Source of the DNA: Pelagibacterales bacterium SAG-MED37
GTDB taxonomy: Bacteria; Pseudomonadota; Alphaproteobacteria; Pelagibacterales; Pelagibacteraceae
Direction: 5' to 3'
Assembly (NCBI GenBank): GCA_014653605.1
Contig: JACWEG010000001.1
Coordinates: 1 to 64,000 of the forward strand
DNA: 64,000 nucleotides
Shown: positions 44,102 through 59,360 of the stretch, piece by piece
Layout: each line of letters starts with the position of its first letter
How positions within the stretch are numbered: the first letter of the stretch is position 1
Program-made: the position numbers and the translations under genes
The notes under the pieces: generated by a model
What the model was told of the DNA's origin: nothing
The model's input: only the letters and a program-made list of their open reading frames with translations
Database searches by the model: none

Positions 44102-45112
44102 ATGGATTTTATAAACGCAATTATTCTTTTACTAAACTATATATTTATTCCAGCTTTAACTTATGGTTCACAGTTAGCACTAGGCGCAATATTCGTGACA
44201 TTGATTTATGGTATTTTAAGATTTGCCAATTTTGCCACCGGGGACATGATGTCATTTGGAACTATGGCGGCAATTTTGTTTACTTGGTATTTTCAATCCT
44301 TGGGTGTTTCGTTGGGTGTTTTGCCAACAGCACTTATAGCTATTCCATTTGCAATCATTTTTATGATTTTTTATATGCTATTGATTGATAAATTTGTTTT
44401 CAAATACTATAGAAATCAAAAAAGCCCACCTGTTCAACTTGCTATGGTTAGTATAGGTGTGATGTTTGTTACTCAAGCAGTAGTAAGAATTATTATAGGG
44501 CCTTCAGATAGAAGATTTTTTGATGGTGAGAAATTCATAATTAAAGCAGGTGAATTTAAAGAAATTACAGGATTAAATGAAGGTCTTGCAATTAAATCAA
44601 CTCAAATATTAACTATACTGGTAACACTAATTTTAGTTTCAACTCTTTTTTGGTTTTTGAACAAAACTAAGACTGGAAAAAGTATGAAAGCTTATTCGGA
44701 TAATGAAGATCTAGCTTTACTCTCAGGAATAGATCCCAAAAAAATAGTTATGATTACTTGGATAATTGCTGGAATATTAGCAACTATTGGCGGAACTCTT
44801 TATGGTTTAGACAAAAGCTTTAAACCATTCACATACTTTAACAATATGCTACCCATATTCGCTGCGGCAATAGTTGGGGGAATTGGCAATCCTTTTGGAG
44901 CATTTCTAGGAGGATATGTAATTGCTTTCTCCGAAATATTTTTAACATATGCTTATAAGAAATTTTTTATGTATGTTTTACCAGAAAGTATGGAGCCTGA
45001 TGGTTTAGTTCAATTACTTTCAACTGATTACAAATTTGCAGTTTCTTTTTCAATATTAGTAATTGTGTTGTTATACCGACCGTCTGGAATATTTAAAGGC
45101 AAGGTGCTATGA
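44102..45112 (+). CDS. livH: HAAT ABC transporter permease (LivH-like) 2
   Basis: 336 residues. LivH motif GAIFVTLIYGILRFANFATGDMMSFG and the cytoplasmic loop AAAIVGGIGNPFGAFLGGYVIAFSE. About 35 residues longer than the first LivH, mostly from a loop around 125-165. Immediately follows livF and overlaps the LivM gene by 4 bases. Confidence 0.9.
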   Translation: MDFINAIILLLNYIFIPALTYGSQLALGAIFVTLIYGILRFANFATGDMMSFGTMAAILFTWYFQSLGVSLGVLPTALIAIPFAIIFMIFYMLLIDKFVFKYYRNQKSPPVQLAMVSIGVMFVTQAVVRIIIGPSDRRFFDGEKFIIKAGEFKEITGLNEGLAIKSTQILTILVTLILVSTLFWFLNKTKTGKSMKAYSDNEDLALLSGIDPKKIVMITWIIAGILATIGGTLYGLDKSFKPFTYFNNMLPIFAAAIVGGIGNPFGAFLGGYVIAFSEIFLTYAYKKFFMYVLPESMEPDGLVQLLSTDYKFAVSFSILVIVLLYRPSGIFKGKVL

Positions 45113-46479
45113 GAAAAAACTTAAACGTAATTGCTGCTTACAGTATTATGATGGGATTAATCATACTTGTCGGAATATTTCAGTCATGGAATATCGCTTT
45201 ATCAATATTTAATCTCTGTTTAATCTCAGCTGTCATGACAATGGGTGCTAATATCCAATGGGGTTATGCTGGTCTAATTAATTTTGGAATAATGGGTTAT
45301 ACAGCTTTAGGTGGTTTAGCAGCAGTTTTAATTTCAGTTAATCCAGTTCAGGAAGCTTGGAGTGCAGGAGGTTCTAATATTTTATTTAGCCTATTATTAA
45401 TTATAGGAATGGTATTAGCTGTTAGATATGTTTTAAAAAAATACGATAAATCTAAACTTAGAACTTATATAATTGCAACAATTATCATTTCAGGAATTAT
45501 TCTAGTTAGATTTATTTCTGAGCCTGGTATTGAAGCAATAGAAGAAGTAAATCCTGCTAAAACAGGTTTTCTTGGTGGCTTTGGATTGCCAATTATTTTT
45601 TCATGGATAGTAGGGGCAATATTTGCAGGTGGTTTAGCCTTTATTATTGGAAAAGTAGCTTTAGGCCTAAGAGCTGATTACTTAGCAATAGCAACTCTAC
45701 TTATTTCAGAAATCGTAATAGCAATTATTAAACATGAAGACTGGTTAACAAGAGGTGTTAAAAATGTAATAGGCCTGAAGCGCCCAGCACCATATGAAGT
45801 AGATCTTCAGCAAACAGATTGGTTCATAAATTTAGTTGAAAAATTTAATTTCAGTAAATTAAATTTGATACAAGATTTTTCAGAAAGACAAAGTGCACTT
45901 AACCAGTTGGTTATTGAAGGTTCTTCAATTTTTGTAAAACTTTGTTATTCAGGATTATTTTTAGTTGTAGTAATTATTCTTCTAATATTAACACAGAAAG
46001 CTCTTTATTCTCCATGGGGACGAATGATGAGAGCGATAAGAGACAATGAAGAGGCAGCAAATGCTATGGGTAAAAATGTTGTTAAGCAACATCTTCTAAT
46101 ATTTGTTTTAGGCTCAGCTATAGTAGGAATTGCTGGAGCAATGTTAGTAACTCAAGATGGGCTATTTACCCCTGGTAGCTACAGACCAATGCGATATACT
46201 TTTTTAATTTGGGTAATGGTAATTGTTGGAGGAAGTGGAAATAATTTTGGTGCAATTTTAGGTGGTTTCGCAGTTTGGTTTTTATGGATTGAAGCTGCAC
46301 CAATTGCACTCTTTGTAATTAATCTAACTACATCTGGATTAGCTGATACTCATTTTTTAAAACAGCATTTAATTGAAAGTGTACCTTATTTTAGATTTTT
46401 AATGATGGGAATAGGGTTATTATTAATTATGAGATACAGACCAAAAGGTATACTTCCTGAAAAAATAGAAATAAAATGA
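45109..46479 (+). CDS. livM: HAAT ABC transporter permease (LivM-like) 2
   Basis: 456 residues, against 349 for the first copy. Core motifs: ANIQWGYAGLINFGIMGYTALGG, GLRADYLAIATLLISEI and the coupling loop VGGSGNNFGAILGG. Extra length comes from additional helices near 95-130 and a hydrophilic stretch near 220-275. Long LivM forms exist (the E. coli one has about 425 residues), so this is not by itself abnormal. Confidence 0.9.
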   Translation: MRKNLNVIAAYSIMMGLIILVGIFQSWNIALSIFNLCLISAVMTMGANIQWGYAGLINFGIMGYTALGGLAAVLISVNPVQEAWSAGGSNILFSLLLIIGMVLAVRYVLKKYDKSKLRTYIIATIIISGIILVRFISEPGIEAIEEVNPAKTGFLGGFGLPIIFSWIVGAIFAGGLAFIIGKVALGLRADYLAIATLLISEIVIAIIKHEDWLTRGVKNVIGLKRPAPYEVDLQQTDWFINLVEKFNFSKLNLIQDFSERQSALNQLVIEGSSIFVKLCYSGLFLVVVIILLILTQKALYSPWGRMMRAIRDNEEAANAMGKNVVKQHLLIFVLGSAIVGIAGAMLVTQDGLFTPGSYRPMRYTFLIWVMVIVGGSGNNFGAILGGFAVWFLWIEAAPIALFVINLTTSGLADTHFLKQHLIESVPYFRFLMMGIGLLLIMRYRPKGILPEKIEIK

Positions 46480-46483
46480 AATT

Positions 46484-46555
46484 ATGAAATATATTATAAC
46501 AGGTGCTGCAATAGCTTGGGCTTTGTATATAGCAGATAAATATATTTTTTTTTAA
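46484..46555 (+). CDS. Possible 23-residue membrane micropeptide
   Basis: An open frame of 23 codons, MKYIITGAAIAWALYIADKYIFF, begins 4 bases after the livM stop. It has one hydrophobic segment and ends at the edge of the terminator. It may be a small accessory peptide of the importer or a chance frame; I cannot separate these from one sequence. Confidence 0.3.
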   Translation: MKYIITGAAIAWALYIADKYIFF

Positions 46556-46588
46556 AAAAAACCCCCAACAAGCTAATGCTGGGGGTTT
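46553..46588 (-). terminator. Intrinsic terminator between convergent livM and binding protein 2
   Basis: CCCCC (46562-46566) pairs with GGGGG (46581-46585), with inner AGC/GCT. On the minus strand GGGGG is followed by eight T, ideal for ending the binding-protein transcript. On the plus strand only TTTAAATTTT follows, so it works less well for livM. Confidence 0.88.
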
Positions 46589-46603
46589 AAATTTTAAGAT
46601 AAA

Positions 46604-47785
46604 TTATCTTTGTTTTTTAGTTTTGAATTTTCCGCCTTTAATTTCTTGTTCTAAGAAAGAACCTTCAGCTTCACCGACGCTAGTAAAATTAACTCCAGTT
46701 GCACCCTCGTAGTCAACTTTTTTACCTTTTGCTAGTAAATCCAAACCTTTTTTTAGTTCACCTGGATAAATTTTTGTTCCAGGACCATTAGCAACATCCA
46801 TTACATTTTTTGCAATTGATGCTCTATCAGCTGATCCACCTGCTTGCATTGCTAAAATAATTAAAGCAGCAGCATCATAAGATTCACCAGTGTAAGGACC
46901 TGAGCTATCGATACCAGCAGCTTTTGCTACATTACCGAATACACCTGCACCTTTACCAGTTGAACCTGGCATTGAACCAAAAGATTTTTTCAAGTCTTTT
47001 CCAAATGCATCAACTAACGACTGACCGATCATACCATCAGATAAAATGAATTTATCAAACGCACCAGAGTCTAGAGAGGCTTGGATAATTCCTTTACCAC
47101 CTTGGTCTAGGTAACCAATTACAGCTACTGCATCACCACCTGCTGAAGCAAGAGTTGCTACTTCAGAGGAGTAATCTGCTTTACCATCTTCATGAGCAGT
47201 TACAGTAGTTACTTTGATACCATGAGCTTCAACAGCTGCTTTGTAAACATCTGCTAAACCTTTTCCATAGTCATTGTTAGTATAAGTGATTGCAACACTT
47301 TTAACTTTTCTATCTTTCGTAATATCAGCTAAAATTTGACCACCTCTAGCATCAGACGGAGCAGTTCTGAAGAAATACCCTTTGTCATCTAAAGTAGTTA
47401 ATCCTGGTGATGTAGCTGATGGTGAAATCATTACTACACCGTTTGGTACAGCAACATTTGAAGCTATTGCTCCAGTTACACCTGAACAGTCTGCGCCCAT
47501 AATAGCCGCTACACCTTGCGCAATAACACCTTCAGCTGCTGCGGTTGCCGCTGCTGAGTCCACACAAGTAGAATCTGCTCTTACTACTGAAATAGTTTCC
47601 CCACCTAATAGCGATCCTGAGTCTGAAGCTTCTTTGAAAGCAAGCTCAGCAGAGGCAGCCATTGCTGGTGTTAGAGATTCAATAGGACCAGTAAATCCTA
47701 ATATAATTCCCATTTTAACATCTGCAAATGCATTCGTTGTAAAAGTTGAAACGAATATAAAAGCAGCAATAAATAGTTTTTTCAT
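46604..47785 (-). CDS. HAAT-type ABC transporter substrate-binding protein 2
   Basis: 393 residues from the ATG at 47785, which has the ribosome site AAAAGGAAGATA; the longer TTG start is rejected. Signal peptide 1-21 (cleavage after AFA). LivK-type fold: MGIILGFTGPIESLTPAMAASAELA, DSTCVDSAAATAAAEGVIAQGV, GADCSGVTGA, with a cysteine pair. It faces the livGFHM genes from the opposite strand, so binding protein and pore are separately controlled. Confidence 0.88.
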   Translation of the reverse strand: MKKLFIAAFIFVSTFTTNAFADVKMGIILGFTGPIESLTPAMAASAELAFKEASDSGSLLGGETISVVRADSTCVDSAAATAAAEGVIAQGVAAIMGADCSGVTGAIASNVAVPNGVVMISPSATSPGLTTLDDKGYFFRTAPSDARGGQILADITKDRKVKSVAITYTNNDYGKGLADVYKAAVEAHGIKVTTVTAHEDGKADYSSEVATLASAGGDAVAVIGYLDQGGKGIIQASLDSGAFDKFILSDGMIGQSLVDAFGKDLKKSFGSMPGSTGKGAGVFGNVAKAAGIDSSGPYTGESYDAAALIILAMQAGGSADRASIAKNVMDVANGPGTKIYPGELKKGLDLLAKGKKVDYEGATGVNFTSVGEAEGSFLEQEIKGGKFKTKKQR

Positions 47786-47797
47786 TATCTTCCTTTT

Positions 47798-47811
47798 AAT
47801 TGTTAACAATT
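47798..47811 (-). promoter_or_regulatory. 14-bp palindrome in leader of binding protein 2
   Basis: AATTGTTAACAATT is a perfect palindrome between the likely transcription start (near 47817) and the ribosome site. Its place fits an operator or a short mRNA hairpin. No regulator gene is nearby. Confidence 0.4.
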
Positions 47812-47823
47812 TATAAAAGATAA

Positions 47824-47852
47824 ATTAAATCTAATTTTCTAAAAATTTTCAA
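47824..47852 (-). promoter_or_regulatory. Likely promoter of binding protein 2
   Basis: On the minus strand TTGAAA (47852-47847), 17 bases, TTTAAT (47829-47824). The spacing and boxes resemble those proposed for binding protein 1 (TTGCAA-17-TTTAAT). Confidence 0.5.
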
Positions 47853-47860
47853 TAACCAAT

Positions 47861-48718
47861 TTAACTTATTTTATGCAGAAAGATTACAGAACTAATCACA
47901 ATAATGCCGCCTATTACAAATAAGAATGACGGAACCTCTCCAAATATAAGAAAACTTAGCAAAATACCAAAGATTGGAAATAAGGAATAGAAGGGAAAAA
48001 TTTTACCTACTGTATAAAATTTATACAAATAGAACATTAATAGATGTGCACATAAAGAAACAATAATTGCTTGGTATGAGATTAATATCCAAGACTCCAT
48101 TTCAATTAGTCTGATATTTTTAATTACCTCACCCTCTAATATTGACGAAATAAAAATTAAAATAACAAAACCAAAAAGACCTGTGCTTGCATTAATTAGA
48201 CTGATACTTAAATCTTTTAATTGTCTAGAGTAAACTTGTGCTAACCCAAAAAATAATGCCATTAAACTCGCAAATAATAAACCAAGAAAATTGTCAGTTA
48301 GTTTTGGATCAAAAAATATTATTAGAATCCCTAAAAAAGAAGTAAAAATTAATATCCACTTTTTTCTACTGATGTTTTCATCAAGTATAAAAGCACTTGC
48401 AATAATACCAAATGGAATTGCCAATTGTGATCCTAGTATTATTGGAGAAATTATAGAAGAATGGAATAATGATAAGTTCATAAATACGTAAACCATTACT
48501 CCCATAGATAATGAAAAGAATATTAAGGACTTGTAATATTTTTTTTCTGGTAATTTGAAATTCCAAAATGGAATTAAAATCAATAACACTAATGCCATAC
48601 GTAAGGACGCCATTAGTATTGGTGGTACCGAATTGTTTAAAGCCAATTTAGCTACAGGAAAAGCACTACCATGTGCAGCCATTATAAAGAGTAAAATTAA
48701 TAAATGTTTGATTGGCAA
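47861..48718 (-). CDS. EamA/DMT family permease
   Basis: 285 residues with about ten membrane helices. I choose the TTG at 48718, which starts LPIKHLLILLFIMAAHGSAFPVAKLAL, four bases after the aldehyde dehydrogenase stop. A longer frame runs 45 codons into that gene but encodes no recognisable part. Last gene of the minus-strand catabolic operon, so it may export a by-product or take up a related compound; this is inference. Confidence 0.78.
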   Translation of the reverse strand: MPIKHLLILLFIMAAHGSAFPVAKLALNNSVPPILMASLRMALVLLILIPFWNFKLPEKKYYKSLIFFSLSMGVMVYVFMNLSLFHSSIISPIILGSQLAIPFGIIASAFILDENISRKKWILIFTSFLGILIIFFDPKLTDNFLGLLFASLMALFFGLAQVYSRQLKDLSISLINASTGLFGFVILIFISSILEGEVIKNIRLIEMESWILISYQAIIVSLCAHLLMFYLYKFYTVGKIFPFYSLFPIFGILLSFLIFGEVPSFLFVIGGIIVISSVIFLHKIS

Positions 48719-48722
48719 ATCA

Positions 48723-50204
48723 TTAACCCATTGTGAAAGGATCAGACATTGGCTTATCAGAGGAGTTATACCAAGTTGTTTTAATTCTCGTATACTCTTT
48801 AATTGACTCGATACCTGCTTCTTTTCCATAGCCACTATCTTTAATTCCACCAAAAGGTGCCATTGGAGATATTAATCGATAAGTATTTATAAATACTATC
48901 CCAGCTCTTATTGCTTTTGAAACCCTGAGGCCTCTTGCAAAGTTAGATGTATAAACTCCAGATGATAATCCATATTTGTTATCATTCATTTTTTTTATAA
49001 CTTCTTCTTCTTTATCAAATTTCATAACGGATAATATTGGTCCAAACAATTCATTCTCTGCTACTGGAAGGTTATGATTTTCACATTCAATAATTGTTGC
49101 AGGAAAATAATAACCTTTATTTGAAACAGAGGATCTCTCACCACCACATCTTATTTTTCCACCTTGTTCAGTAGTTGCCTTAATATTTTTTTCTATATTT
49201 TCTAATTGTTTAAAACTATTTAAAGGTCCCATCTGAGTATCTTCTTCCATAGGTCCACCTAATTTTATTTTTTTTGCTTTAGTTATCAATTTGTCTAAAA
49301 ATTCATTATAGATTTTAGATTGTAAATAGAGTCTTGATCCAGCAATACAACTTTGCCCACTAGCACCAAATATTCCTGCAGTAATTCCATTTAAAGCATT
49401 TTCTTGATCAGCATCATCAAACACTACGACAGGACTTTTTCCACCAAGTTCTAAACTTACTTGTGATAAATTTTCAGCAGAATTTTTTACAATATGTTTG
49501 GCTGTTTCAGGGCCACCAGTGAATGCAATTCTTTCCACAAGATTATGTGTAGTTAGTGCTTTACCACATGGTTCTCCTAATCCGGTTATTATATTAATTA
49601 CTCCTTTGGGTATTCCAGTTTTTTCTATTAATTTTGCAAATTCTAAAAGTGTTACTGGGGCAAGTTCTGATGCTTTTATTACTACTGTATTTCCCATAGC
49701 AAGTGCAGGAGCAAGCTTTACAGCAGTCAATAGCATTTGAGAATTCCAAGGAATAATTGCTGCTACAACACCAATCGGTATCCTTGTTGTAGTAACTTGC
49801 ATGTCAGGTTTATCAATTGGAACTACAGTTCCTTCAACTTTGTCAGCCAGTCCAGCAAAATAATCATAATATTCTGCAATATAATTAGCCTGGGTTTTTG
49901 TTTCTCTATAAATTTTTCCAGTATCTATAGTTTCTATTTTTCCTAGATGCTCTGCATTTTCTCTTAGTTGATCTGCAATTAATCTTAAGTATTTTGCTCT
50001 ATCTCTCGGGTGAAGTATTGACCAACTATTTTCAAAAGCATTTTGTGCTGATTGAACAGCTTTATCTACATCTTTCTCATTAGCTTCAGGAACTGTTGCC
50101 CACACCTCATTATTTTCTGGGTTAAGAGTTTGTATTTTTTTACCCGATGAGGAGTCTACCCACTCACCGTTTATATACATTTTAAAATTTTGAATTTTTG
50201 GCAT
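48723..50204 (-). CDS. NAD(P)-dependent aldehyde dehydrogenase
   Basis: 493 residues. Catalytic Cys286 in GQSCIAGSR and general base Glu252 in SLELGGKSP; the cofactor region IPWNSQMLLTAVKLAPALAMGNTVVIK is intact. Closest in feel to betaine-aldehyde or semialdehyde dehydrogenases of the class 9/10 type. In this operon it probably oxidises a semialdehyde released after ring opening and hydrolysis. Its start follows the hydrolase stop directly. Confidence 0.92.
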   Translation of the reverse strand: MPKIQNFKMYINGEWVDSSSGKKIQTLNPENNEVWATVPEANEKDVDKAVQSAQNAFENSWSILHPRDRAKYLRLIADQLRENAEHLGKIETIDTGKIYRETKTQANYIAEYYDYFAGLADKVEGTVVPIDKPDMQVTTTRIPIGVVAAIIPWNSQMLLTAVKLAPALAMGNTVVIKASELAPVTLLEFAKLIEKTGIPKGVINIITGLGEPCGKALTTHNLVERIAFTGGPETAKHIVKNSAENLSQVSLELGGKSPVVVFDDADQENALNGITAGIFGASGQSCIAGSRLYLQSKIYNEFLDKLITKAKKIKLGGPMEEDTQMGPLNSFKQLENIEKNIKATTEQGGKIRCGGERSSVSNKGYYFPATIIECENHNLPVAENELFGPILSVMKFDKEEEVIKKMNDNKYGLSSGVYTSNFARGLRVSKAIRAGIVFINTYRLISPMAPFGGIKDSGYGKEAGIESIKEYTRIKTTWYNSSDKPMSDPFTMG

Positions 50205-50987
50205 TTAATTATTAATAAAATTCTTGATGTTCATATTAACATCATCTGCACACTCTATACTACAAAGATGTTTTCCATTTTTAATTTCAATAAAAATTGA
50301 ATTAGGTATATCTTTAGCTAATTCTTGAGACATTTTTGAAGTCGATCCAGGGTCATTAGATCCAGTCATAATTAAAGTCTTTGAAGTAATATTTTTGATT
50401 ATTAATGAATTATCGTTGTGATTAGCAAATAATTCGTAAGCTTTAAGAAAGTTTATATGATCCTCGGGTTCTTTAGTTAGTATTTTCATAAACAAATCGT
50501 AAGTCGAAGGATTGTTTTCTAGATAATTATCGCTAAACCATCTTTTTAGTGCTTGTTTTGATATTGGTTTATTTAGTTTAGCTTGGTTATATCTATCTAA
50601 AACTAGTGCTCTTTCAGCTTCAGATCTTTTATAAGTTGTCCCGATTAATATAAGCTTATTAACTTTATCTTGGTAATTTGAGGTAAAGTCTAAGGCTATT
50701 AGAGATCCAAGAGAAAACCCAATAAGATTAATCTTATCTACTTGAAGATTATTTAGTATTTCATCAAGTTGTTTGGAAAAATCATTGAGGGTTAACTTTT
50801 CTTTTTTGCAAGGTGTTTTTCCATGACCCAACAAATCATATGTAATTATAGAGAATTCATTTAATTTACTAATTTGTGATTGCCACATTTGATGATCGAG
50901 GCCAACTCCATGAATAAAAACCAACGGAGTAGTATTTTTTTTTAAATAAAAATAGTGATTTTGATTTGAATCAAAATTATCAGACAT
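50205..50987 (-). CDS. Alpha/beta hydrolase
   Basis: 260 residues. The oxyanion segment FIHGVGLDHQMW (25-36), nucleophile elbow GFSLGS (Ser92), the acid in MTGSNDPGS and His240 in NGKHLC form a full triad. Resembles 3-oxoadipate enol-lactonase and RutD-like enzymes. It could hydrolyse a lactone, ester or N-acyl enamine formed by the flavin oxygenase encoded two genes upstream. Confidence 0.88.
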   Translation of the reverse strand: MSDNFDSNQNHYFYLKKNTTPLVFIHGVGLDHQMWQSQISKLNEFSIITYDLLGHGKTPCKKEKLTLNDFSKQLDEILNNLQVDKINLIGFSLGSLIALDFTSNYQDKVNKLILIGTTYKRSEAERALVLDRYNQAKLNKPISKQALKRWFSDNYLENNPSTYDLFMKILTKEPEDHINFLKAYELFANHNDNSLIIKNITSKTLIMTGSNDPGSTSKMSQELAKDIPNSIFIEIKNGKHLCSIECADDVNMNIKNFINN

Positions 50988-50991
50988 TGAA

Positions 50992-51579
50992 CTATTTTGG
51001 GTCTAAACCCATTTCTTTCATATCTTGATAACGATCTCCAGTTCTAGCATGTGCTCTACCACTTGAAGCACCTCCAATTGAAATTACTATTTCATCATCA
51101 AATGGTGCATCGTGAATTGTAAACTCATGAGTTAAATAATAAGGTCTTAAACCTGAGTCAGTTTTATGCATCATTGGTATAGATATTTTAGAGCCTGCAG
51201 GACCTCTGGTGTTTGTAAAACTTAAATAAGATGTTCCACCAACAGCATCTCTAAATTTATTTCCAAATCTTAAGGTATGAATGAATGCTGATGCATGTTC
51301 AATTTCACCGTTTAAGCCAACAGTTCCTGCTTTACCATAAGCTAAAATTTTTTCTGGTGATCCAATTTCTTTTATTAATTCCGGAACTAAAATATCACCA
51401 AGTTTTGGAGCCAAATCTAAAATGATTGGTTTTAAATCTTCGACAAAACCTTTTCCAGCCCAAGGATTTTTGAACACAGCAGCTACTGATACTAATAAGA
51501 CTGGTTCTTTAGCTTTCTTTCCACCCTCAATGAAAGTTTTATCAACAAACTTTGTAAACTTTCTAAGTTCTAAATCCAT
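50992..51579 (-). CDS. DUF1185 (amino acid synthesis family) protein
   Basis: 195 residues. Matches the PF06684-type family in feel: VSVAAVFKNPWAGKGFVEDL, AYGKAGTVGLNGEIEHASAFIHTLRFGN, and a C-terminal EIVISIGGASSGRAHARTGDRYQDM. The function of this family is not settled; the name comes from a weak early link to amino acid synthesis. Its position between a luciferase-like oxygenase and a hydrolase points to a catabolic, perhaps ring-processing, role. Confidence 0.8.
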   Translation of the reverse strand: MDLELRKFTKFVDKTFIEGGKKAKEPVLLVSVAAVFKNPWAGKGFVEDLKPIILDLAPKLGDILVPELIKEIGSPEKILAYGKAGTVGLNGEIEHASAFIHTLRFGNKFRDAVGGTSYLSFTNTRGPAGSKISIPMMHKTDSGLRPYYLTHEFTIHDAPFDDEIVISIGGASSGRAHARTGDRYQDMKEMGLDPK

Positions 51580-52745
51580 TAACTTGCTTTTTCTATATTA
51601 GAAGAATCTAAATTAATTTTTGGAATTACCTCGTCATTAAATAATTTAATGCTTCTCATGCAAGCTTTATGATCTATACCGGGGAAGTTTGACCAAACTT
51701 GTAGATTTTGTAAATTTAATTCAGATTTTAATTCGTTAATTTTATTAACAACATAATCAGGAGTACCAAATAATAAATTTCTTTTATGAAGAAAATCATA
51801 GTTTAGTAAATCCAATTTATGTTTTGTCTCAGGAAGTTCTTCGCCAGGATCCATGTGATTTCCTAAGCCTCTCCAATGACAAACCCATTTCATATAATTA
51901 ATGATGTGTTCACCAGCCATTTTTTCTGCTTCTTCCATAGTTTCAGCAACAAACATATCTCTTACTAAAGATATACCTTCTCCTAATGGAACATCTCTAT
52001 TTTCAGCCTTTGATTTTGCATCTCTATAAATTTCAAATCTTTTCTTTAAGGCTTTAACAGTTGGTATCCACATAATTGTATTTAAACCATTTTGTGCAGC
52101 CCACTCAATTGATCTAGCACCATCAACAACTTGCCAAATAGGAGGATGCGGTGATTGTTTTGGTTTTGGAACGATACTTATTTTTTTTATTTCATTTGTT
52201 TTTGTATCTAAAAACTTTTCACTTGGCGGACTCATATCATGTTGCCAAACAAAATTTGGTGAGGGATAATTATAAAATTCACCTTGGTGATTAAAAAACT
52301 CTTCTGTCCAAGCTTTTTTCATAATTGTTAAAGATTCTTCGAATAGTCTGAAATTTTTAGCCTGGTCTTTAAGATCAGCTTCTTTATTCATATTTATTGC
52401 TTCTCTTCCATAGATTCCTCTACCAATACCAACATCAACTCTGCCATCTGATAATTGATCTAACAAGGCTATGTCTTCTGCTAATCTGATTGGATTATGA
52501 AATGTAATGACATTGCATGCTTGCCCAATTCTTATTTGTTTAGTTCTAGCTGCTGCATCAACACCCATCATTAAAGGATTTGTGCAAGACTCCATTCCTT
52601 CATGATTAAAATGATGCTCAGTATACCAAATTGAGTCCCAATTATTCTCATCACAAAAAGTTGTGATCTCTTTTGTTTCATCAAGTAGTTGATTATATGG
52701 CTTGTGATTCCAATTCGTGGTGTTGCAAAAATATCCAAATTTCAT
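51579..52745 (-). CDS. Luciferase-like flavin-dependent monooxygenase
   Basis: 388 residues, bacterial-luciferase (LLM) fold. Typical parts: FCNTTNWNHKPYN, WYTEHHFNHEG, RIGQACNVITFHNPIRLAEDIALLDQLSDGRVDVGIGRG and the C-terminal FGTPDYVVNKINEL. Uses reduced FMN, usually from a separate reductase, none of which is seen nearby. Relatives open N-heterocyclic rings (for example RutA and the trigonelline oxygenase). First gene of the operon, with an unusually strong ribosome site. Confidence 0.9.
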   Translation of the reverse strand: MKFGYFCNTTNWNHKPYNQLLDETKEITTFCDENNWDSIWYTEHHFNHEGMESCTNPLMMGVDAAARTKQIRIGQACNVITFHNPIRLAEDIALLDQLSDGRVDVGIGRGIYGREAINMNKEADLKDQAKNFRLFEESLTIMKKAWTEEFFNHQGEFYNYPSPNFVWQHDMSPPSEKFLDTKTNEIKKISIVPKPKQSPHPPIWQVVDGARSIEWAAQNGLNTIMWIPTVKALKKRFEIYRDAKSKAENRDVPLGEGISLVRDMFVAETMEEAEKMAGEHIINYMKWVCHWRGLGNHMDPGEELPETKHKLDLLNYDFLHKRNLLFGTPDYVVNKINELKSELNLQNLQVWSNFPGIDHKACMRSIKLFNDEVIPKINLDSSNIEKAS

Positions 52746-52750
52746 TCGAA

Positions 52751-52757
52751 CCTCCTT
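52751..52757 (-). promoter_or_regulatory. Perfect Shine-Dalgarno of the flavin monooxygenase gene
   Basis: The minus strand reads AAGGAGG five bases before the ATG, one of the fullest matches to the 16S rRNA tail in this window, where most genes have weak or no site. It supports the chosen start and suggests high translation when the operon is on. Confidence 0.7.
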
Positions 52758-52854
52758 AAATAATTAAATCTAAGACGATCGATCCCACTTTCGTATTTTG
52801 TAAATATCGACGAGTTATGTATCGCTCAATCAAGACTGTAATTTAACTAGACTA

Positions 52855-52877
52855 TTTAATCAATATATATTTAATCA
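52855..52877 (+). repeat. Direct repeat TTTAATCA before the EutA-like gene
   Basis: TTTAATCA occurs at 52855-52862 and 52870-52877, 15 bases apart, close to the ATG at 52886 in the 140-base divergent control region. It may be a tandem protein site or part of a promoter; AT-richness makes chance possible. Confidence 0.3.
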
Positions 52878-52885
52878 GCAATTAA

Positions 52886-53629
52886 ATGAAACTAACTAAA
52901 ATAGAACCAAAATTTATTGAAAAACATAACCCAAGGATAGGATTAATTACTTTAGCAAGTGACTTTAGGATTGAAAAAGATTTTAACAATATAATTTATG
53001 GTAAAGACATAGACTTATTTTGTAATAGAATTAAAAGTTATAATCCCTTAACAAATGAAACATTAAAAAAAATGGCAGATGATATTCCTAAAGTTGTTAA
53101 GAATATCTTACCTGATCAAAAAATTGATTGTATAGCTTATGGATGTACTTCAGGAACAATTGCTGCAGGATATGCATCTATTTATGAAAAAATTAATTCA
53201 ACAAAACCAAATACAAAAGTTACAACACCAATTACATCTGCAATTAATGCATTAAAGGCACTTAAGATAAATAAATTATCTGTATTCACACCTTATACAG
53301 ATGAAATAAATCAGTCAGTAATTAATTATTTTAAAAAAGAAAATATAGAAATCACTGGACTAACTTATTTTGATATAGCCTCAGATTTAGATATAGGAAA
53401 AGTTAATCCAGATCATTTATTTGATGTTTTAAGTAAAATAGATTTGTTAAATAGTGATGCATTGTTTGTTTCTTGTACAGCGTTACCCGTGTTATCAATT
53501 ATTAAAGATCTAGAAAAAAAAATGAGTAAAATTATTTTATCTAGCAATCAAACTTTAATATGGGACACACTCAAACAGATTGATTTTAAAAGTAAAGTTG
53601 AAGGCTATGGTGAATTATTTAATAATTAG
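52886..53629 (+). CDS. Asp/Glu racemase superfamily protein (EutA / maleate isomerase-like)
   Basis: 247 residues. Two cysteines sit at the expected catalytic places: Cys87 in AYGCTSGT and Cys197 in FVSCTALP. This pattern is shared by maleate isomerase, arylmalonate decarboxylase and the ectoine-utilisation protein EutA. Its neighbour is an ectoine-hydrolase-type gene, which favours EutA-like function, for instance isomerising an intermediate. Substrate is not proven. Confidence 0.75.
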   Translation: MKLTKIEPKFIEKHNPRIGLITLASDFRIEKDFNNIIYGKDIDLFCNRIKSYNPLTNETLKKMADDIPKVVKNILPDQKIDCIAYGCTSGTIAAGYASIYEKINSTKPNTKVTTPITSAINALKALKINKLSVFTPYTDEINQSVINYFKKENIEITGLTYFDIASDLDIGKVNPDHLFDVLSKIDLLNSDALFVSCTALPVLSIIKDLEKKMSKIILSSNQTLIWDTLKQIDFKSKVEGYGELFNN

Positions 53630-53632
53630 ATT

Positions 53633-54802
53633 ATGAATTTTACTAGAGAAGAATACAAATCAAGATTAAAAAAAGTCCAAGCTTCAATGCAGAAAAAAGG
53701 TATTGAACTTTTAATCTCACAAGATCCATCTAATATGAATTATTTAACAGGTTATGACGCTTGGTCATTTTATTATGCTCAATGCGTAATAGTACATATA
53801 AACGCTGATGAGCCAATTTGTTTTGTTAGAAATCAAGATGCAGGAGGCGCATATATAAAAACCTATCTAAAAGATGAAAATATAATTAAGTATCATGAAA
53901 AATATATTCATACATGGCCGTTACACCCTTACGATGCTTTAGTAGATCTTATTAAAGAAAGAAAGTGGGACAAACTCTTAGTAGGACTAGAAATGGATAG
54001 TCATTATTTCACCGCTTATTGTTACGAGAAAATTAAACAAGGTTTACCAAATGCAAAAATTTTGGATTGTGAGCGCTTAGTAAACTGGGTTAGAGTTGTA
54101 AAATCTGATGCAGAAATAAAATTTATGAAAGCTGCATCTGAAATTTCTCAACTAGGAATGAAAAAGGCTTTTGAAGTTATTAGTCCAGGTGTAAGACAAT
54201 GTGATGCAGTTTCAGAAATCTATACTACATTAATAAAAGGAACTCCTGATTTTGGAGGAGATTATTCATCAATAGTTCCAATGATACCAACTGGAAAAGG
54301 TACATCTGCTTCACATTTAACGTGGTCAGAAGATAAATTTGTTGAAGGAGAAGCTACAATTATTGAATTATCAGGTGTTAATAAAAAATATCACTGTCCT
54401 ATGGCTCGTACAGTTCTACTAGGAAAACCAGAACAAAAAAAAATTGATACTATGAAGAAGACTAATGAGGCGCTTCAAGCAGGAATAGATCTAGTTAAAG
54501 CAGGAAATACTGCTGATGATGTTGCTCAAGCTTTTTGGAAAGTGTTAGATAAATATGGAATAGAAAAAACTTCAAGAACCGGATATTCCATTGGTATAGG
54601 ATATCCACCTGATTGGGGCGAGCATACTTTAAATATTTCTAAAGGTGATATGACAGTTTTACAACCTAATGTTACTTTTCATATGATTGCAGTGATGCAA
54701 TTTGGAAATTGGGGAGTCGAAGCATCTGAAGCAATTAGAGTTACAGATAAGGGTTATGAATTATTTTGTAACTTTTCTAAAGAACTTCATGTTAAAAGCT
54801 AG
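53633..54802 (+). CDS. M24 family hydrolase, ectoine hydrolase type (DoeA/EutD-like)
   Basis: 389 residues, creatinase N-terminal plus pita-bread C-terminal domains. GYPPDWGEHT and TVLQPNVTFHMI are close to ectoine hydrolases. The two aspartates that bind metal in aminopeptidase P are replaced (IIELSGVNKKYHCPMART), as in creatinase and EutD, which work without metal. It would hydrolyse a cyclic amidine or amide such as ectoine. The later ectoine genes (eutB, eutC, eutE/doeB) are not in this window, so another substrate is possible. Three bases after the EutA-like gene. Confidence 0.78.
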   Translation: MNFTREEYKSRLKKVQASMQKKGIELLISQDPSNMNYLTGYDAWSFYYAQCVIVHINADEPICFVRNQDAGGAYIKTYLKDENIIKYHEKYIHTWPLHPYDALVDLIKERKWDKLLVGLEMDSHYFTAYCYEKIKQGLPNAKILDCERLVNWVRVVKSDAEIKFMKAASEISQLGMKKAFEVISPGVRQCDAVSEIYTTLIKGTPDFGGDYSSIVPMIPTGKGTSASHLTWSEDKFVEGEATIIELSGVNKKYHCPMARTVLLGKPEQKKIDTMKKTNEALQAGIDLVKAGNTADDVAQAFWKVLDKYGIEKTSRTGYSIGIGYPPDWGEHTLNISKGDMTVLQPNVTFHMIAVMQFGNWGVEASEAIRVTDKGYELFCNFSKELHVKS

Positions 54803-54858
54803 TTATTAGGGGTTGATATTTACACTTACAAATGTTTTAAATTCATAATTTTATTTCA

Positions 54859-55938
54859 ATGAATAAAGAATTCGTAAAATTTGATAAAGTAGACAAAAGT
54901 TATGACGGTAAAATACTTGTCGTAAAAGATCTTCAATTAGATATTGAAGAAGGAGAGTTCGTTACTATGTTAGGACCCTCTGGTTCTGGTAAGACTACTT
55001 GTTTAATGATGTTGGCTGGATTTGAAACACCAACCCATGGTGAAATTTATTTAGACGGAAAAGCAATTTCAAGTATTCCACCCCATAAAAGAGGTATCGG
55101 AATGGTATTTCAAAATTACGCTTTGTTTCCACATATGACAGTTTATGAAAATTTAGCGTTTCCTTTAAGAGTTAGAAAAATTCCTAAAGATGAAGCGGAT
55201 AAAAAAATTGATAAAGCACTATCAATGGTTTCATTACAAGGATTTGCTCAAAGAATGCCAGGTCAATTGTCTGGGGGACAGCAACAAAGAGTTGCAGTAG
55301 CGAGGTCACTAGTATTTGATCCACAACTAGTTTTAATGGATGAACCTCTGGGTGCTTTAGATAAAAATTTGAGAGAGAGTATGCAGTATGAAATTAAACA
55401 TATTCATGAAAGTATTGGGGTAACTGTTGTTTATGTAACCCATGACCAAAGTGAAGCGCTTACAATGTCAAATCGTATTGCGGTTTTCAATGATGGCAAA
55501 GTTCAACAGCTCTCAAGTCCTGATGAACTGTATGAAAAACCAGTTAATTCATTTGTTGCAGAATTTATTGGAGAAAATAATACTTTTGCTGGAGAAGTGT
55601 CAGATATTTCTGGTGGAAAATGTAAAGTGAAGTTAGCTAATGCAGAAATATTAGCAAATCCTATTTCTGTTAAAGGAAAAGGGGAGAAAACAACCGTATC
55701 TTTAAGACCTGAGAGAGCTTTAATTAATCCAAGTGATAAAATGGATAATGTTCATAACGGAAAAATTGAAGAAGTTATTTACCATGGTGACCATACTAGA
55801 GTCAGAATTAATTTATTAGGAAATTCTGAATTTATTCTCAAAGTACCAAATAGTTCATCTAATCTTGATATTAAATTAGGTAATGAAATCAAGATTGGTT
55901 GGAATAGTGAAGATGCTAGAGCATTAGACCCAAAATAA
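54859..55938 (+). CDS. PotA-like ABC transporter ATPase
   Basis: 359 residues. Walker A GPSGSGKTT, signature LSGGQQQRVAVARS, Walker B VLMDEPLGALD, switch histidine VTHDQSEA, and a C-terminal TOBE regulatory domain (about 275-355). Belongs to the spermidine/putrescine group. It powers the importer whose binding protein and permeases follow. Confidence 0.93.
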   Translation: MNKEFVKFDKVDKSYDGKILVVKDLQLDIEEGEFVTMLGPSGSGKTTCLMMLAGFETPTHGEIYLDGKAISSIPPHKRGIGMVFQNYALFPHMTVYENLAFPLRVRKIPKDEADKKIDKALSMVSLQGFAQRMPGQLSGGQQQRVAVARSLVFDPQLVLMDEPLGALDKNLRESMQYEIKHIHESIGVTVVYVTHDQSEALTMSNRIAVFNDGKVQQLSSPDELYEKPVNSFVAEFIGENNTFAGEVSDISGGKCKVKLANAEILANPISVKGKGEKTTVSLRPERALINPSDKMDNVHNGKIEEVIYHGDHTRVRINLLGNSEFILKVPNSSSNLDIKLGNEIKIGWNSEDARALDPK

Positions 55939-55976
55939 ACACCAATTACATCTTGTATAACTTACAAAAAGGGCTG

Positions 55977-56005
55977 TTGACTCTCATTATCGATCTTGTT
56001 GTAAT
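55977..56005 (+). promoter_or_regulatory. Likely promoter of the PotD-like binding protein
   Basis: TTGACT (55977-55982), 17 bases, TGTAAT (56000-56005). This would allow the binding-protein gene to be transcribed on its own, apart from the ATPase gene upstream. Confidence 0.5.
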
Positions 56006-56022
56006 CTGTTTTTATAAAAAAA

Positions 56023-56032
56023 CGTTTAAACG
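56023..56032 (+). promoter_or_regulatory. Palindrome CGTTTAAACG before the binding-protein gene
   Basis: A perfect 10-bp palindrome lies between the promoter and the ribosome site (GGAGG at 56032-56036). It may be an operator or a small hairpin near the ribosome site, comparable in place to the palindrome ahead of HAAT binding protein 2. Confidence 0.4.
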
Positions 56033-56040
56033 GAGGAAAA

Positions 56041-57162
56041 ATGAAAACACTTAGTAAATTATTACTAGCCATTTCTTTTGCTATCTCTGTAACTACTTCA
56101 GCATTTGCAGTAACTGCAGTGTCTTGGGGTGGAGCTTACACAGAGTCTCAAAAGTTAGGTTATGGTGATCCTACTGGTAAAGCCCTTGGTATAACTATCA
56201 ATTGGGTTGATTATTCGGGTGGATTATCTGAGATCAAAGCACAAAAAGAAGCTGGCAAAATTACGTGGGATATAATCGACGTATTTGCAATGGATACTAT
56301 CAATGGATGTGATGAAGGATTATTTGTTGAATTTGATTTTGACAAAGATTTCCCACCTGCACCAGATGGAACTCCTGCAAGTAAAGATTTCTTTACTGCA
56401 ATGCCAAGTAAATGTGCTGTAGGAAACATTTTATATTCTTGGAACTACGCTTATAACAAAAACAATGTTAAAGGCACTCCAAAGACTATCAAAGATTTCT
56501 TTAACACTAAAAAATTCCCAGGAAAAAGAGCTATCTACAAAGGCGCTCTAACAAACTTAGAAATCGCTTTAGCTGCAGATGGAATTAAACCAGGAAAAGG
56601 TGGAGCAAAAATCTACAAAGCTTTAAATACTGAAAAAGGTGTTGATAGAGCTATGAACAAGATCAAAGAATTATGTACAGATCCAAAAGGTGGATGTGTA
56701 TTTTGGTCTGCAGGTGCTCAACCACCAGAACTATTAGTTTCAGGTGAAGTTGTAATGGCTACAGGTTGGAATGGTAGATTCTTCAATGCAGAAATTGGAG
56801 AAGGTGCACCAATCGTACAAGTATGGGATGGACAAGGTCTTGACTACGAGTATTTCGTACAAGTTAAGGGTGGACCAAACGATGCTAATGGTATGGCTAA
56901 GAAAGCTTTAGCTATGATGACTAGTACAGAGATGTTAGCAGGAAGTGCAAAATACATTGCATACGCTCCTTGGAGAAAATCTTCTATAGCGATTATGGAA
57001 GCAGGGGAGCCATGGTATAAAGATGGTAAAACTAATATGGTACCACAAATGCCAACTGCACCACAAAACACTAAAAACTATTTCTTAGTTGACCCAATTT
57101 TCTGGGCTGACAACGGAACAGAGCTAGGTGAGAAGTGGGAAGCTATGAAAGCTGGTCTATAA
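56041..57162 (+). CDS. PotD/PotF-like ABC transporter substrate-binding protein
   Basis: 373 residues with a signal peptide (1-23, ending SAFA). Class of spermidine/putrescine-type binding proteins: AVSWGGAYTESQ at the start, WDIIDVFAMDTINGCDEG, and KFPGKRAIYKGALTNLEIAL. Substrates of this class include polyamines, but also other cationic or zwitterionic amines. The ring-opening operon nearby makes a small cyclic amine plausible. Confidence 0.88.
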   Translation: MKTLSKLLLAISFAISVTTSAFAVTAVSWGGAYTESQKLGYGDPTGKALGITINWVDYSGGLSEIKAQKEAGKITWDIIDVFAMDTINGCDEGLFVEFDFDKDFPPAPDGTPASKDFFTAMPSKCAVGNILYSWNYAYNKNNVKGTPKTIKDFFNTKKFPGKRAIYKGALTNLEIALAADGIKPGKGGAKIYKALNTEKGVDRAMNKIKELCTDPKGGCVFWSAGAQPPELLVSGEVVMATGWNGRFFNAEIGEGAPIVQVWDGQGLDYEYFVQVKGGPNDANGMAKKALAMMTSTEMLAGSAKYIAYAPWRKSSIAIMEAGEPWYKDGKTNMVPQMPTAPQNTKNYFLVDPIFWADNGTELGEKWEAMKAGL

Positions 57163-57201
57163 TTTAAGTTTTATTAAACTTAATTATATATTATAATTTG
57201 A

Positions 57202-57229
57202 GGGCGGTTATTTGATAACCGCCCTTTTT
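57202..57229 (+). terminator. Strong intrinsic terminator after the PotD-like gene
   Basis: GGGCGGTTAT (57202-57211) pairs perfectly with ATAACCGCCC (57215-57224) around a TTG loop, followed by T5. It lies between the binding-protein gene and the first permease gene (start 57234), inside the operon. Confidence 0.9.
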
Positions 57230-57233
57230 ATTT

Positions 57234-58487
57234 ATGAGCTCAGAAACACAAAAAATTTTAACAACAGACGGCATACCTTTAGAAGTAAGTCTTAAAAAAG
57301 CTGAGAGAAGAAACAAGATAAAAGCTTTTTTACTTGTAGCTCCACTATTATTATTTTTGATTATTACTTACGTGTTTCCAATTGGTGATATGCTTATGAG
57401 AAGTGTTGATGATAAAATGGTAACTGAAATGCTTCCTAAAACATTTAAAGCAATGGAAAAGTGGGATGGTAAAGAATTACCAGAAGAAGAGGTTTTTGAA
57501 GCATTCTATTTAGACTTTAGACAATTAGTTGATGAAAAGCGTGAAGGTAAATTATCAACTCAACTTAATTATACAAAAAATGGATTTAAAAGTATTATTA
57601 AAAAACTTAGAAGAAAATCAAAAAACTTTGAAGAAGGAAATTATAAAGAACAAATAATGGCAGTCCATAAAAGATGGGCAGATGTTGAATATTGGAAGGC
57701 AATTAAACGAAGAGCACCAGCATATACAAGTCAAAAATATCTAAAAGGTATGGATATGTTTAAAAATGAAAATGGGGAAATTGTTAGTGTTTCTGAGGAT
57801 AGAAGAATTCACAGAATTTTATGGCTTAGAACTTTAGAAATTGCATTTTTTGTAACGCTATTTTGTTTTTTGATGGCTTACCCAATAGCTCATTTGTTAG
57901 CTACTTTACCCATGAAGTATAGTAACTTACTAATGATCTGCGTGTTGCTTCCGTTTTGGACGTCTCTTCTTGTAAGAACTGCTAGCTGGATGATTTTGTT
58001 ACAACAGCAAGGGGTCGTAAATGATTTCTTTGTAGGAATAGGTTTAGTTGCTGACGATGCAAGGCCTGAGATGATGTATAATAAAACAGGGACATATGTT
58101 GCAATGACACAGATTCTGTTGCCATTTATGGTTTTACCACTTTACAGTGTTATGAAAACTATTTCACCAAGCTTAATGAGGGCTGGAAAATCATTAGGTG
58201 GAACACCAATTGTTGCGTTTTGGAAAGTTTATTTTCCTTTAACAATTCCTGGAATTGGTGCTGGTTGTTTACTATGCTTTATATTAGCAATTGGTTATTA
58301 CATTACACCCGCCTTAGTTGGAGGAGCTTCAGGAACATTGATTAGTAACCAAATTGCATTTCACATGAAAAGTACACTTGATTGGAGTTTTGCATCTGCC
58401 ATGGGTCTAATGTTGCTTGCTGGAGTTTTGGCAATTTACTGGGTTTATAATAAATTAGTTGGAATTGATAATATAAAGTTAGGATAA
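57234..58487 (+). CDS. PotB-like ABC transporter permease with large insert
   Basis: 417 residues. One helix near 30-52, then a hydrophilic, charged segment of about 140 residues (about 55-195), then five more helices with the EAA-type loop AGKSLGGTPIVAFWKVYFPLTIPG. Standard PotB has about 275-285 residues and only a short loop there. The insert would lie in the periplasm and may touch the binding protein. The start follows the terminator without an obvious ribosome site. Confidence 0.88.
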   Translation: MSSETQKILTTDGIPLEVSLKKAERRNKIKAFLLVAPLLLFLIITYVFPIGDMLMRSVDDKMVTEMLPKTFKAMEKWDGKELPEEEVFEAFYLDFRQLVDEKREGKLSTQLNYTKNGFKSIIKKLRRKSKNFEEGNYKEQIMAVHKRWADVEYWKAIKRRAPAYTSQKYLKGMDMFKNENGEIVSVSEDRRIHRILWLRTLEIAFFVTLFCFLMAYPIAHLLATLPMKYSNLLMICVLLPFWTSLLVRTASWMILLQQQGVVNDFFVGIGLVADDARPEMMYNKTGTYVAMTQILLPFMVLPLYSVMKTISPSLMRAGKSLGGTPIVAFWKVYFPLTIPGIGAGCLLCFILAIGYYITPALVGGASGTLISNQIAFHMKSTLDWSFASAMGLMLLAGVLAIYWVYNKLVGIDNIKLG

Positions 58488-58492
58488 ATAGA

Positions 58493-59347
58493 ATGGCTTT
58501 ACCAAAACATACAGAACTACACTATAGGATTTGGCATTATTTTTATTTAACAATCTGTGGTCTTGTCTTCTTTTTCTTAATTGCACCACTGTTTGTAATA
58601 TTTCCACTATCTTTTAATGCTGAAGAATTTTTAAGTTTTTCAGACGGAATGAAAAGTTTAGACCCAGATGCTTTCTCATTAAGATGGTACAAAGATATGG
58701 TTTATGGAACAAAAAATCCTTGGGGCTTAGCTGCCAAAAATAGTTTTATCATTGCAATTTTTGCAACAATTGGTTCAGTTTTATTGGGAACAGTCGCTGC
58801 TCTTGGGTTAAGTAGTAGGCATATGCCCTACAAAGGTATAATCATGGCAGTTTTAATATCTCCAATGATTGTTCCATTAATTATTTCTGGTGTAGCAATA
58901 TTTTTCTTTATGGCTAAAGCTGGTTTAGCAGCAACTCATACAGGTATAGTTCTAGCACATATTATTCTAGGTACACCATTTGTAGTTATTACTGTTACTG
59001 CTACTTTATCAGGATTTGATCATAGTGTTACGAGAGCCGCAGCAAGTCTTGGCAGTAATCCAGTTAATACTTTTATGAAAATTACTTTACCTTTAATTTT
59101 ACCTGGTGTGATATCTGGAGGACTTTTTGCTTTTGTAACTTCTTTTGATGAAGTTGTGGTAGTTTTATTTTTAGCAGGTTTAGAAAATACAACTATACCA
59201 ATTCAAATGTGGACAGGTCTAAGAGAACAGTTAAGCCCAACTATTCTTGCTGTTGCAACTTGTCTAATTATTTTATCAACATTAATATTAGTAACCGCTG
59301 AACTTTTAAGAAGAAGATCTGAGAGACTCAGAGGAATAAACCGATAG
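58493..59347 (+). CDS. PotC-like ABC transporter permease
   Basis: 284 residues, six helices. EAA-type loop RAAASLGSNPVNTFMKITLPLILPG and the FVTSFDEVVVVLFLAG segment are typical of PotC. Completes the ATPase, binding protein and two-permease set. Confidence 0.92.
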   Translation: MALPKHTELHYRIWHYFYLTICGLVFFFLIAPLFVIFPLSFNAEEFLSFSDGMKSLDPDAFSLRWYKDMVYGTKNPWGLAAKNSFIIAIFATIGSVLLGTVAALGLSSRHMPYKGIIMAVLISPMIVPLIISGVAIFFFMAKAGLAATHTGIVLAHIILGTPFVVITVTATLSGFDHSVTRAAASLGSNPVNTFMKITLPLILPGVISGGLFAFVTSFDEVVVVLFLAGLENTTIPIQMWTGLREQLSPTILAVATCLIILSTLILVTAELLRRRSERLRGINR

Positions 59348-59360
59348 TAAAAATCATCTA

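Follow-up and report, generated by a model that had tools for sequence, protein, structure and literature searches.

The described systems closest to the genes considered here are the catabolic pathways for trigonelline and homarine (N-methylpicolinate). The trigonelline (tgn) pathway reportedly passes through an N-formyl hydroxylactone, then a dicarboxylate, and ends in hydrolysis. One of its proteins, TgnF, is described as a homologue of HcdD, a DUF1185-type protein, and stimulates TgnE-dependent oxidation of succinic semialdehyde (PMC7913881). DUF1185 structures were solved in 2010 without an assigned reaction (PMC2954203). A homarine catabolic pathway has been published (Ferrer-Gonzalez et al. 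2026, Nat Microbiol, doi 10.1038/s41564-026-02313-7). N-methylglutamate dehydrogenase (Mgd) is described as a participant in the breakdown of homarine (PMC13390433). In addition, the Rut uracil pathway combines RutA, an oxygenase of the luciferase-like monooxygenase (LLM) superfamily, with an alpha/beta hydrolase.

Here, we examine a gene group with similar components in Pelagibacterales bacterium SAG-MED37. The window is a stretch of 64,000 nucleotides (assembly GCA_014653605.1, contig JACWEG010000001.1, positions 1 to 64,000). Its source genome totals 977,632 bases over 56 contigs and is 78.7% complete. An initial annotation of the window proposed an uncharacterised pathway for oxidative opening of a cyclic nitrogen compound. 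The word "uncharacterised" is not supported, since a homarine pathway is already in print. Our literature search found no paper on this SAR11 gene group, but the 2026 homarine paper was not compared and absence from print is not claimed.

A conserved accessory cassette in SAR11

Open reading frame calls and Pfam matches bore out every gene named in the initial annotation, in position, strand and family. Four minus-strand genes are central. They encode an LLM flavin monooxygenase of a SAR11 type, the proposed ring-opening oxygenase (51579..52745, PF00296), and a DUF1185 protein of a clade shared with tgn-type operons (50992..51579; PF06684, AA_synth, 8e-64). A PcaD-like alpha/beta hydrolase (50205..50987, PF00561) follows in a TgnD-like position, and is a putative deformylating or enamide hydrolase. 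The last gene encodes an aldehyde dehydrogenase (ALDH; 48723..50204, PF00171) in a TgnC-like position, a putative semialdehyde (hydroxylactone) dehydrogenase. The LLM and DUF1185 genes have one base in common. The GC content of the cassette (0.318) is similar to that of its flanks (0.327 and 0.340). Nothing reached the gathering score in an Rfam scan of positions 43000-62000.

We compared 93 SAR11 loci: the 80 closest relatives of the window DUF1185 gene, and 13 picked among PF06684-bearing genomes of the family. The 80 all have Pelagibacterales (SAR11) names and are the best of 501, and because they make up most of the sample it leans toward near kin. The hydrolase gene follows DUF1185 in all 84 testable loci, and ALDH comes next wherever this could be tested (80 of 80). 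The LLM gene is immediately upstream of DUF1185 in 65 of 83 testable loci, and stands beyond one or two extra genes in the other 18. Gene order is therefore conserved beyond chance, and the conserved unit consists of LLM, DUF1185, hydrolase and ALDH. The initial annotation had included a fifth gene, for an EamA permease of the drug/metabolite transporter type (47861..48853, minus strand, PF00892). This neighbour is near the cassette in 40 of 77 testable loci and occurs without it in genome G303, which rules it out as an operon member. Hence, conservation holds for four of the five genes. The permease gene was called from a TTG start, overlapping the ALDH gene; an in-frame ATG near 48682 is the likelier start.

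The insertion site of the cassette is flanked on one side by a gene for a LivJ-type branched-chain amino-acid binding protein (46604..47809, minus strand). On the other side, three plus-strand elements follow one another. These are genes for an EutA-like protein of the arylmalonate-decarboxylase family (52886..53629, PF17645), an M24 ectoine-hydrolase-like protein (53633..54802, PF00557/PF01321) and a Pot-type ABC transporter (PotA, PotD, PotB, PotC; 54859..59347). Among testable SAR11 loci, the cassette has LivJ as a neighbour in 49 of 73, EutA in 48 of 78, M24 in 47 of 73 and PotD in 39 of 62. The EutA-like and ectoine-hydrolase-type labels stand at the level of family. They fail at the NCBIfam cut-offs, with 184.8 bits against 318 for EutA and 471.7 against 613 for DoeA; the M24 protein matches the DoeA structure 6twk at 1.3e-107.

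PF06684 was present in 46 of 197 sampled SAR11-family genomes and in 25 of 77 high-quality ones; 13 of the 46 were opened by region. We also opened the EutA-M24 region in five SAR11 genomes without PF06684. In G303, EutA, EamA (a 57% relative of the window permease) and LivJ stand in a row. In G399, G379 and G337, EutA adjoins a LivJ-like gene (94%, 46% and 44% identical, respectively). Neither EamA nor LivJ was beside EutA within the stretch opened in G207. M24 was found in all six same-genus genomes without PF06684 and all seven with it, and was not found in the single genome searched from another genus. In G329 and G349, the cassette lies beside LivJ, with the EutA-M24-Pot block about 20 kb away. 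Given four empty sites among the five opened, and M24 without the cassette, we conclude that the accessory cassette comprises the four genes LLM-DUF1185-hydrolase-ALDH, and that the EutA-M24-Pot block is a separate unit. The permease, EutA and M24, initially taken as parts of the pathway, all occur without the cassette.

The Pot-type transporter, which is also found without the cassette, is a possible uptake route. Its binding protein, PotD, matches PDB entries 8jv1-8jv4 at 1.8e-180 and shares only about 30% identity with the binding protein encoded at the Sinorhizobium meliloti operon described below. Judging by gene order, this PotD may be SAR11_1336. The SAR11_1336 protein imports dimethylsulfoniopropionate (DMSP) and other betaines (PMC13310141).

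Kinship with trigonelline-type operons

The DUF1185 proteins compared from outside SAR11 fall cleanly into two groups. They are either 51-63% identical to the SAR11 protein (clade 1) or at most 37.5% identical (clade 2). Two weak or partial PF06684 places (G079, G056) were dropped before counting. A tree of 40 clade-1 rows and 8 of the 67 clade-2 rows separates both clades, with a Shimodaira-Hasegawa-like approximate likelihood ratio (SH-aLRT) support of 99. Clade 1 holds the SAR11 proteins and those of named operons, including Acinetobacter junii and S. meliloti. TgnF itself should belong here, judging by its stated homology to HcdD (PMC7913881). An alignment of eight clade-1 and four clade-2 rows has an E-H motif, a second H and an R common to all. 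Glu, His and Arg residues of DUF1185 proteins are reported as highly conserved (PMC2954203).

The two clades keep different company. At 15 clade-1 places outside SAR11 in the class sample, a hydrolase gene lies within 6 kb in 12 and an LLM gene in nine. The 67 clade-2 rows yielded one weak LLM match, one hydrolase and one flavin reductase in their neighbourhoods. The search for neighbours used reference proteins of the clusters themselves and a threshold of 60 bits, and could overlook LLMs that do not resemble these. At least three LLM groups accompany clade-1 DUF1185. In G114, G034 and G122, clade-1 DUF1185 occurs with a hydrolase, and no LLM was detected nearby. The G114 pair (L155:1145-5963) is near genes for an amidohydrolase and a protein with three RidA-type stretches. 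Clade-2 genes often form tandem pairs (L188, L190, L191, L192, L200, L201, L202 and others), several near branched-chain amino-acid-type transporter genes. The solved DUF1185 proteins BB2672 and SPO0826 (PDB 3byq, 2qtp) share the family of the cassette protein but differ in having a branched-chain amino-acid transporter context (PMC2954203), as do several clade-2 genes here.

Outside SAR11, the order DUF1185-hydrolase-flavin reductase-LLM-ALDH occurs on plasmids of A. junii, S. meliloti, Chimaeribacter, Thioclava, Leisingera, Gemmobacter, Marivivens and Pantoea. The fullest form adds a divergent GntR regulator to those five genes and is annotated in Chimaeribacter, Thioclava, two Leisingera, Gemmobacter, Marivivens and Pantoea. 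In S. meliloti, the five genes are present and no GntR is annotated. Falsirhodobacter shows no annotated reductase gene. In Acidiphilium, an IS110 gene separates reductase from ALDH, and there is no annotated LLM. The Acinetobacter operon was examined through A. junii plasmid CP077416, rather than strain ADP1. In this unannotated record, BLAST places the same five genes ahead of a permease with weak NCS1 scores and a further ALDH. That ALDH exceeds the succinic semialdehyde dehydrogenase (SSADH) subfamily cut-off (694.7 against 646.35), which fits trigonelline as the substrate; the S. meliloti counterpart falls short (607.9). In Rhizobium leguminosarum and Agrobacterium, the operon has a second form with an LLM of another group; on Parasedimentitalea and Aminobacter plasmids, this form is accompanied by RidA and carnitine-type genes. 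In the latter two (L221, L222), DUF1185-hydrolase-LLM-ALDH lies beside genes for a dehydratase, a 3-hydroxyacyl-CoA dehydrogenase, a 3-keto-5-aminohexanoate cleavage family protein and an ABC transporter. A hom operon, homABCDER, is reportedly present in SAR11; five genes and a regulator would equally fit the GntR-plus-five form.

Several tgn-type operons adjoin genes for a betaine/carnitine/choline transporter (BCCT) or a Pot-type ABC transporter. The Pot-type genes are downstream of the operon in Gemmobacter and, with one small gene intervening, in S. meliloti; BLAST also detected them in Paraburkholderia, Azospirillum and G159. An ABC transporter with this layout is present in Falsirhodobacter, as judged from gene order rather than sequence.

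The cassette ALDH is 50% identical to the Thioclava and Chimaeribacter operon enzymes, 41% to that of R. leguminosarum and 53-55% to those of Aminobacter and Parasedimentitalea. Seven neighbourhoods were opened among the 25 plasmid ALDH matches listed, and all seven were DUF1185 clusters. The cassette hydrolase is 25-30% identical to three operon hydrolases and 32% to that of Parasedimentitalea. Its best NCBIfam matches are PcaD-type models, as for the Chimaeribacter and Agrobacterium proteins, all under the cut-off.

Conversely, the oxygenase belongs elsewhere. Our LLM tree has 60 rows; those below 250 residues were excluded. It does not include the SAR11 sequences of L043 and L081, which are cut short where their contigs end. 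L043, from isolate HTCC9565, has DUF1185, hydrolase and ALDH together with at least part of the LLM. LLMs from named and class-sample operons, 18 in all and of both forms, make up one clade (support 100/100) on a branch of 2.21. The SAR11 LLMs group with that of G211, an alphaproteobacterium (99/93). The program termed its bootstrap rough and flagged long branches. LLMs of G226 and G122, 43-45% identical to the SAR11 protein, have no resolved placement between both groups. E. coli RutA and SsuD fall outside the other rows on long branches. The SAR11 LLM differs from the others by an insertion of about 26 residues and by an EHHF motif in place of EHH. Its structural model (mean predicted local distance difference test score, pLDDT, 64) has RslO1, an Enhygromyxa luciferase and the type II Baeyer-Villiger enzyme 3,6-diketocamphane monooxygenase as nearest solved folds. 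Related LLMs were found at 1e-40 in 12 of 288 other class genomes. At 1e-75, no match to the SAR11 type appeared in 397 other genomes of the phylum draw, a result of sampling because G211, which would match, evidently lies outside the draw. LLMs 29-33% like that of SAR11 are present in Sulfitobacter (L084:7911-11884) and Peribacillus (L085:7926-11615), with a gene for a metallo-beta-lactamase (MBL)-fold hydrolase or a lactonase-family protein. Both loci hold a 3,4-dihydroxy-2-butanone-4-phosphate synthase gene and Peribacillus adds riboflavin kinase.

The G211 operon (L107) is one of the closest known systems outside SAR11. Its order is identical and its proteins are 55% (LLM), 63% (DUF1185), 52% (ALDH) and 31% (hydrolase) identical to those of SAR11. 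Unlike the SAR11 cassette, it has a PF01613 flavin reductase gene directly upstream of LLM. It also differs in its neighbours at L107:11774-15519, namely genes for a Rieske ring-hydroxylating oxygenase, a LysR regulator and a DAO-type FAD oxidase, which suggest a fuller pathway there. In G226, relatives of the cassette genes are scattered.

The cassette thus shares clade-1 DUF1185, a related ALDH and a PcaD-like hydrolase (in all 84 testable loci) with the tgn type. However, its LLM is outside the TgnB-like clade of the named operons, no dedicated TgnA-like flavin reductase (PF01613) was found, it has no second, TgnE-like ALDH within the cassette and its gene order differs. Because oxygenase lineage, reductase and SSADH all depart from the tgn type, we regard the cassette as a relative of such operons that would, in all likelihood, work alike, and not as a member. 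Nor does it belong to Rut: no RutB, RutC, RutE or RutF counterpart was found among the cassette genes, and its LLM is outside the RutA clade. PF03358 proteins are not specific to the cassette, since they were found in all ten genomes searched, three of them without it. As they are present throughout, these proteins could supply reduced flavin mononucleotide (FMNH2) to the LLM.

A thiamine diphosphate enzyme in some lineages

In 18 of 83 testable loci, an enzyme of about 566 residues that uses thiamine diphosphate (ThDP) is encoded between LLM and DUF1185 (L057:6304-8004; L174, L179, L181 and 14 others). The gene overlaps its neighbours by four bases at both ends in L057 and is split over two frames in L024. 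In L046, L067, L080 and L181, it is followed by a gene for a methyltransferase-like protein of 209 residues. Loci with the ThDP enzyme come from a single subgroup within the window's genus and from one or more further genera (L179, G306). Best model matches are to acetolactate synthase and sulfoacetaldehyde acetyltransferase, both under the cut-off. The two best plasmid relatives, at 39-40% identity, are from Ruegeria. In R. pomeroyi, the relative comes after genes for a trimethylamine-methyltransferase-family protein, an aminotransferase and two FAD oxidoreductases. A ThDP enzyme acting on a 2-oxo acid would fit a ring with a carboxylate next to the nitrogen, as in homarine. An enzyme using thiamine pyrophosphate (TPP) near the G226 operon was considered as kin and rejected, there being no match in that locus at 1e-20. 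Separately, a 2-oxoglutarate (2OG)-Fe(II) oxygenase gene is upstream of LLM in L057 (4065-5036) and L181 (827-1798), where EutA is not adjacent.

Predicted function and its alternatives

The initial annotation had read the operon as ring cleavage, hydrolysis and semialdehyde oxidation. Oxidative opening of a nitrogen ring, with semialdehyde oxidation and hydrolysis, is still the reading that best suits the data, because DUF1185, ALDH and hydrolase have kin in tgn-type operons and their order is conserved. On balance, we consider that the cassette is probably an accessory SAR11 catabolic unit for an N-methylated pyridinium carboxylate, with homarine the foremost candidate. Homology, operon structure, accessory status and the separate LLM lineage are the basis for this; activity and substrate are predictions. 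Homarine is abundant in marine particles, where it was measured to make up as much as 3% of particulate carbon (PMC8269262), although a correction states that homarine values had been overstated (PMC10134881). It is drawn down fast by R. pomeroyi (PMC12817926).

Briefly, the LLM would use FMNH2 from a reductase encoded elsewhere to insert oxygen and cleave the ring. The predicted product is an N-formyl-N-methyl enamine with a terminal aldehyde, which could close to a hydroxylactone. The TgnF-like DUF1185 protein may assist by catalysing ring-chain opening of the hydroxylactone, so freeing the aldehyde. ALDH would then oxidise the semialdehyde to a dicarboxylate, and the alpha/beta hydrolase would remove formate and release the amine. 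With homarine as substrate, the expected end products are 2-oxoglutarate and methylamine, or N-methylglutamate. We propose ring opening for DUF1185 because a lactone or hydroxylactone form is common to the substrates of these pathways. Succinic semialdehyde also cyclises to a hydroxylactone. DUF1185 had been considered the least explained member of the operon. That description overlooked TgnF, although the passages of PMC7913881 drawn on here give no exact reaction.

Several observations weigh against this interpretation. The SAR11 LLM sits on a separate branch and shares just 24-27% identity with the three operon LLMs set against it, and the hydrolase is just 25-32% identical to its operon counterparts. 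No PF01613 flavin reductase was found in the source genome, which is incomplete, or in six near-complete PF06684-bearing relatives, of which all five opened have the LLM. It was also not found in two same-genus genomes without PF06684, and was present in the one genome searched from another genus. No transporter is tied to the cassette. For three of the 15 clade-1 DUF1185 genes of the class sample, no partner was detected at a distance of up to 6 kb; one of the three is on a contig of 4.5 kb. The stimulating effect reported for TgnF could not be shown for HcdD (PMC7913881). Furthermore, steric hindrance has been argued to bar TgnA/TgnB from homarine (PMC8269262), which allows, and does not show, that a different LLM acts on it. 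Finally, the present evidence does not separate homarine from trigonelline or another ring compound.

Trigonelline itself could be the substrate, with the tgn oxygenase replaced by an LLM of another lineage. The kinship of DUF1185, ALDH and hydrolase to the Acinetobacter and S. meliloti operons agrees with this, as does poorer growth of R. pomeroyi on homarine than on trigonelline (PMC8269262). We nevertheless think it improbable: the LLM lineage differs, the cassette has no SSADH while the A. junii operon has one, and trigonelline is far scarcer than homarine in seawater particles (PMC8269262, with homarine later corrected downward). Alternatively, tgn-like parts may have been recruited for a different first step, on another small cyclic nitrogen compound or a lactam. 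The three or more LLM groups found with clade-1 DUF1185, the hydrolase pairs of G114, G034 and G122 with no LLM detected nearby, and a ThDP enzyme that reportedly has no counterpart in the tgn pathway are all compatible with such a substrate. It is a serious option, if an unlikely one, as the full set of four genes is conserved and related operons adjoin betaine-type transporters.

We give far less credence to two other explanations. The LLM might demethylate an acyclic betaine or sulfonium osmolyte, or cleave it at another bond, leaving the other enzymes to process the aldehyde. In favour of this are the close match of the adjacent PotD to a solved protein, the import of DMSP and other betaines reported for SAR11_1336 (PMC13310141), and the place of a related gene set among carnitine-type genes in Parasedimentitalea and Aminobacter. 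Even so, ring opening, as for trigonelline, is the process to which operons sharing these downstream genes have been linked (PMC7913881), and an acyclic substrate seems very improbable. Equally hard to credit is a pathway for ectoine or hydroxyectoine that includes the divergent EutA and M24 genes. These adjoin the cassette in the window and in many other loci (48 of 78 for EutA, 47 of 73 for M24). Against that stand the four empty sites and M24 in six of six same-genus genomes without PF06684, on which we reject an ectoine link of the cassette; both proteins are also under the model cut-offs for eut/doe ectoine utilisation and are not tied to the operon.

Returning to the homarine-type interpretation, we tentatively suggest how the cassette arose, in a scheme that is possible and more doubtful than the general function. 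SAR11 may have joined a tgn-type downstream module (DUF1185, hydrolase and ALDH) to an LLM of another lineage. This LLM would work without a dedicated PF01613 reductase, on a substrate beyond the tgn oxygenase, such as homarine or a related 2-carboxylated ring. Clade-1 DUF1185 would be a hydroxylactone/aldehyde ring-chain tautomerase, a new activity common to several pathways, and the ThDP enzyme would act on the released 2-oxo acid.

The role of DUF1185 is now directly testable. SAR11 bacteria rank among the ocean's most abundant cells. Because PF06684 occurs in a fraction of the family's genomes (46 of 197, or 25 of 77 of high quality), whether a given SAR11 population uses such betaines could depend on the cassette. 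Given the divergent oxygenase, SAR11 could go undetected in surveys that rely on LLM sequences from the named operons.

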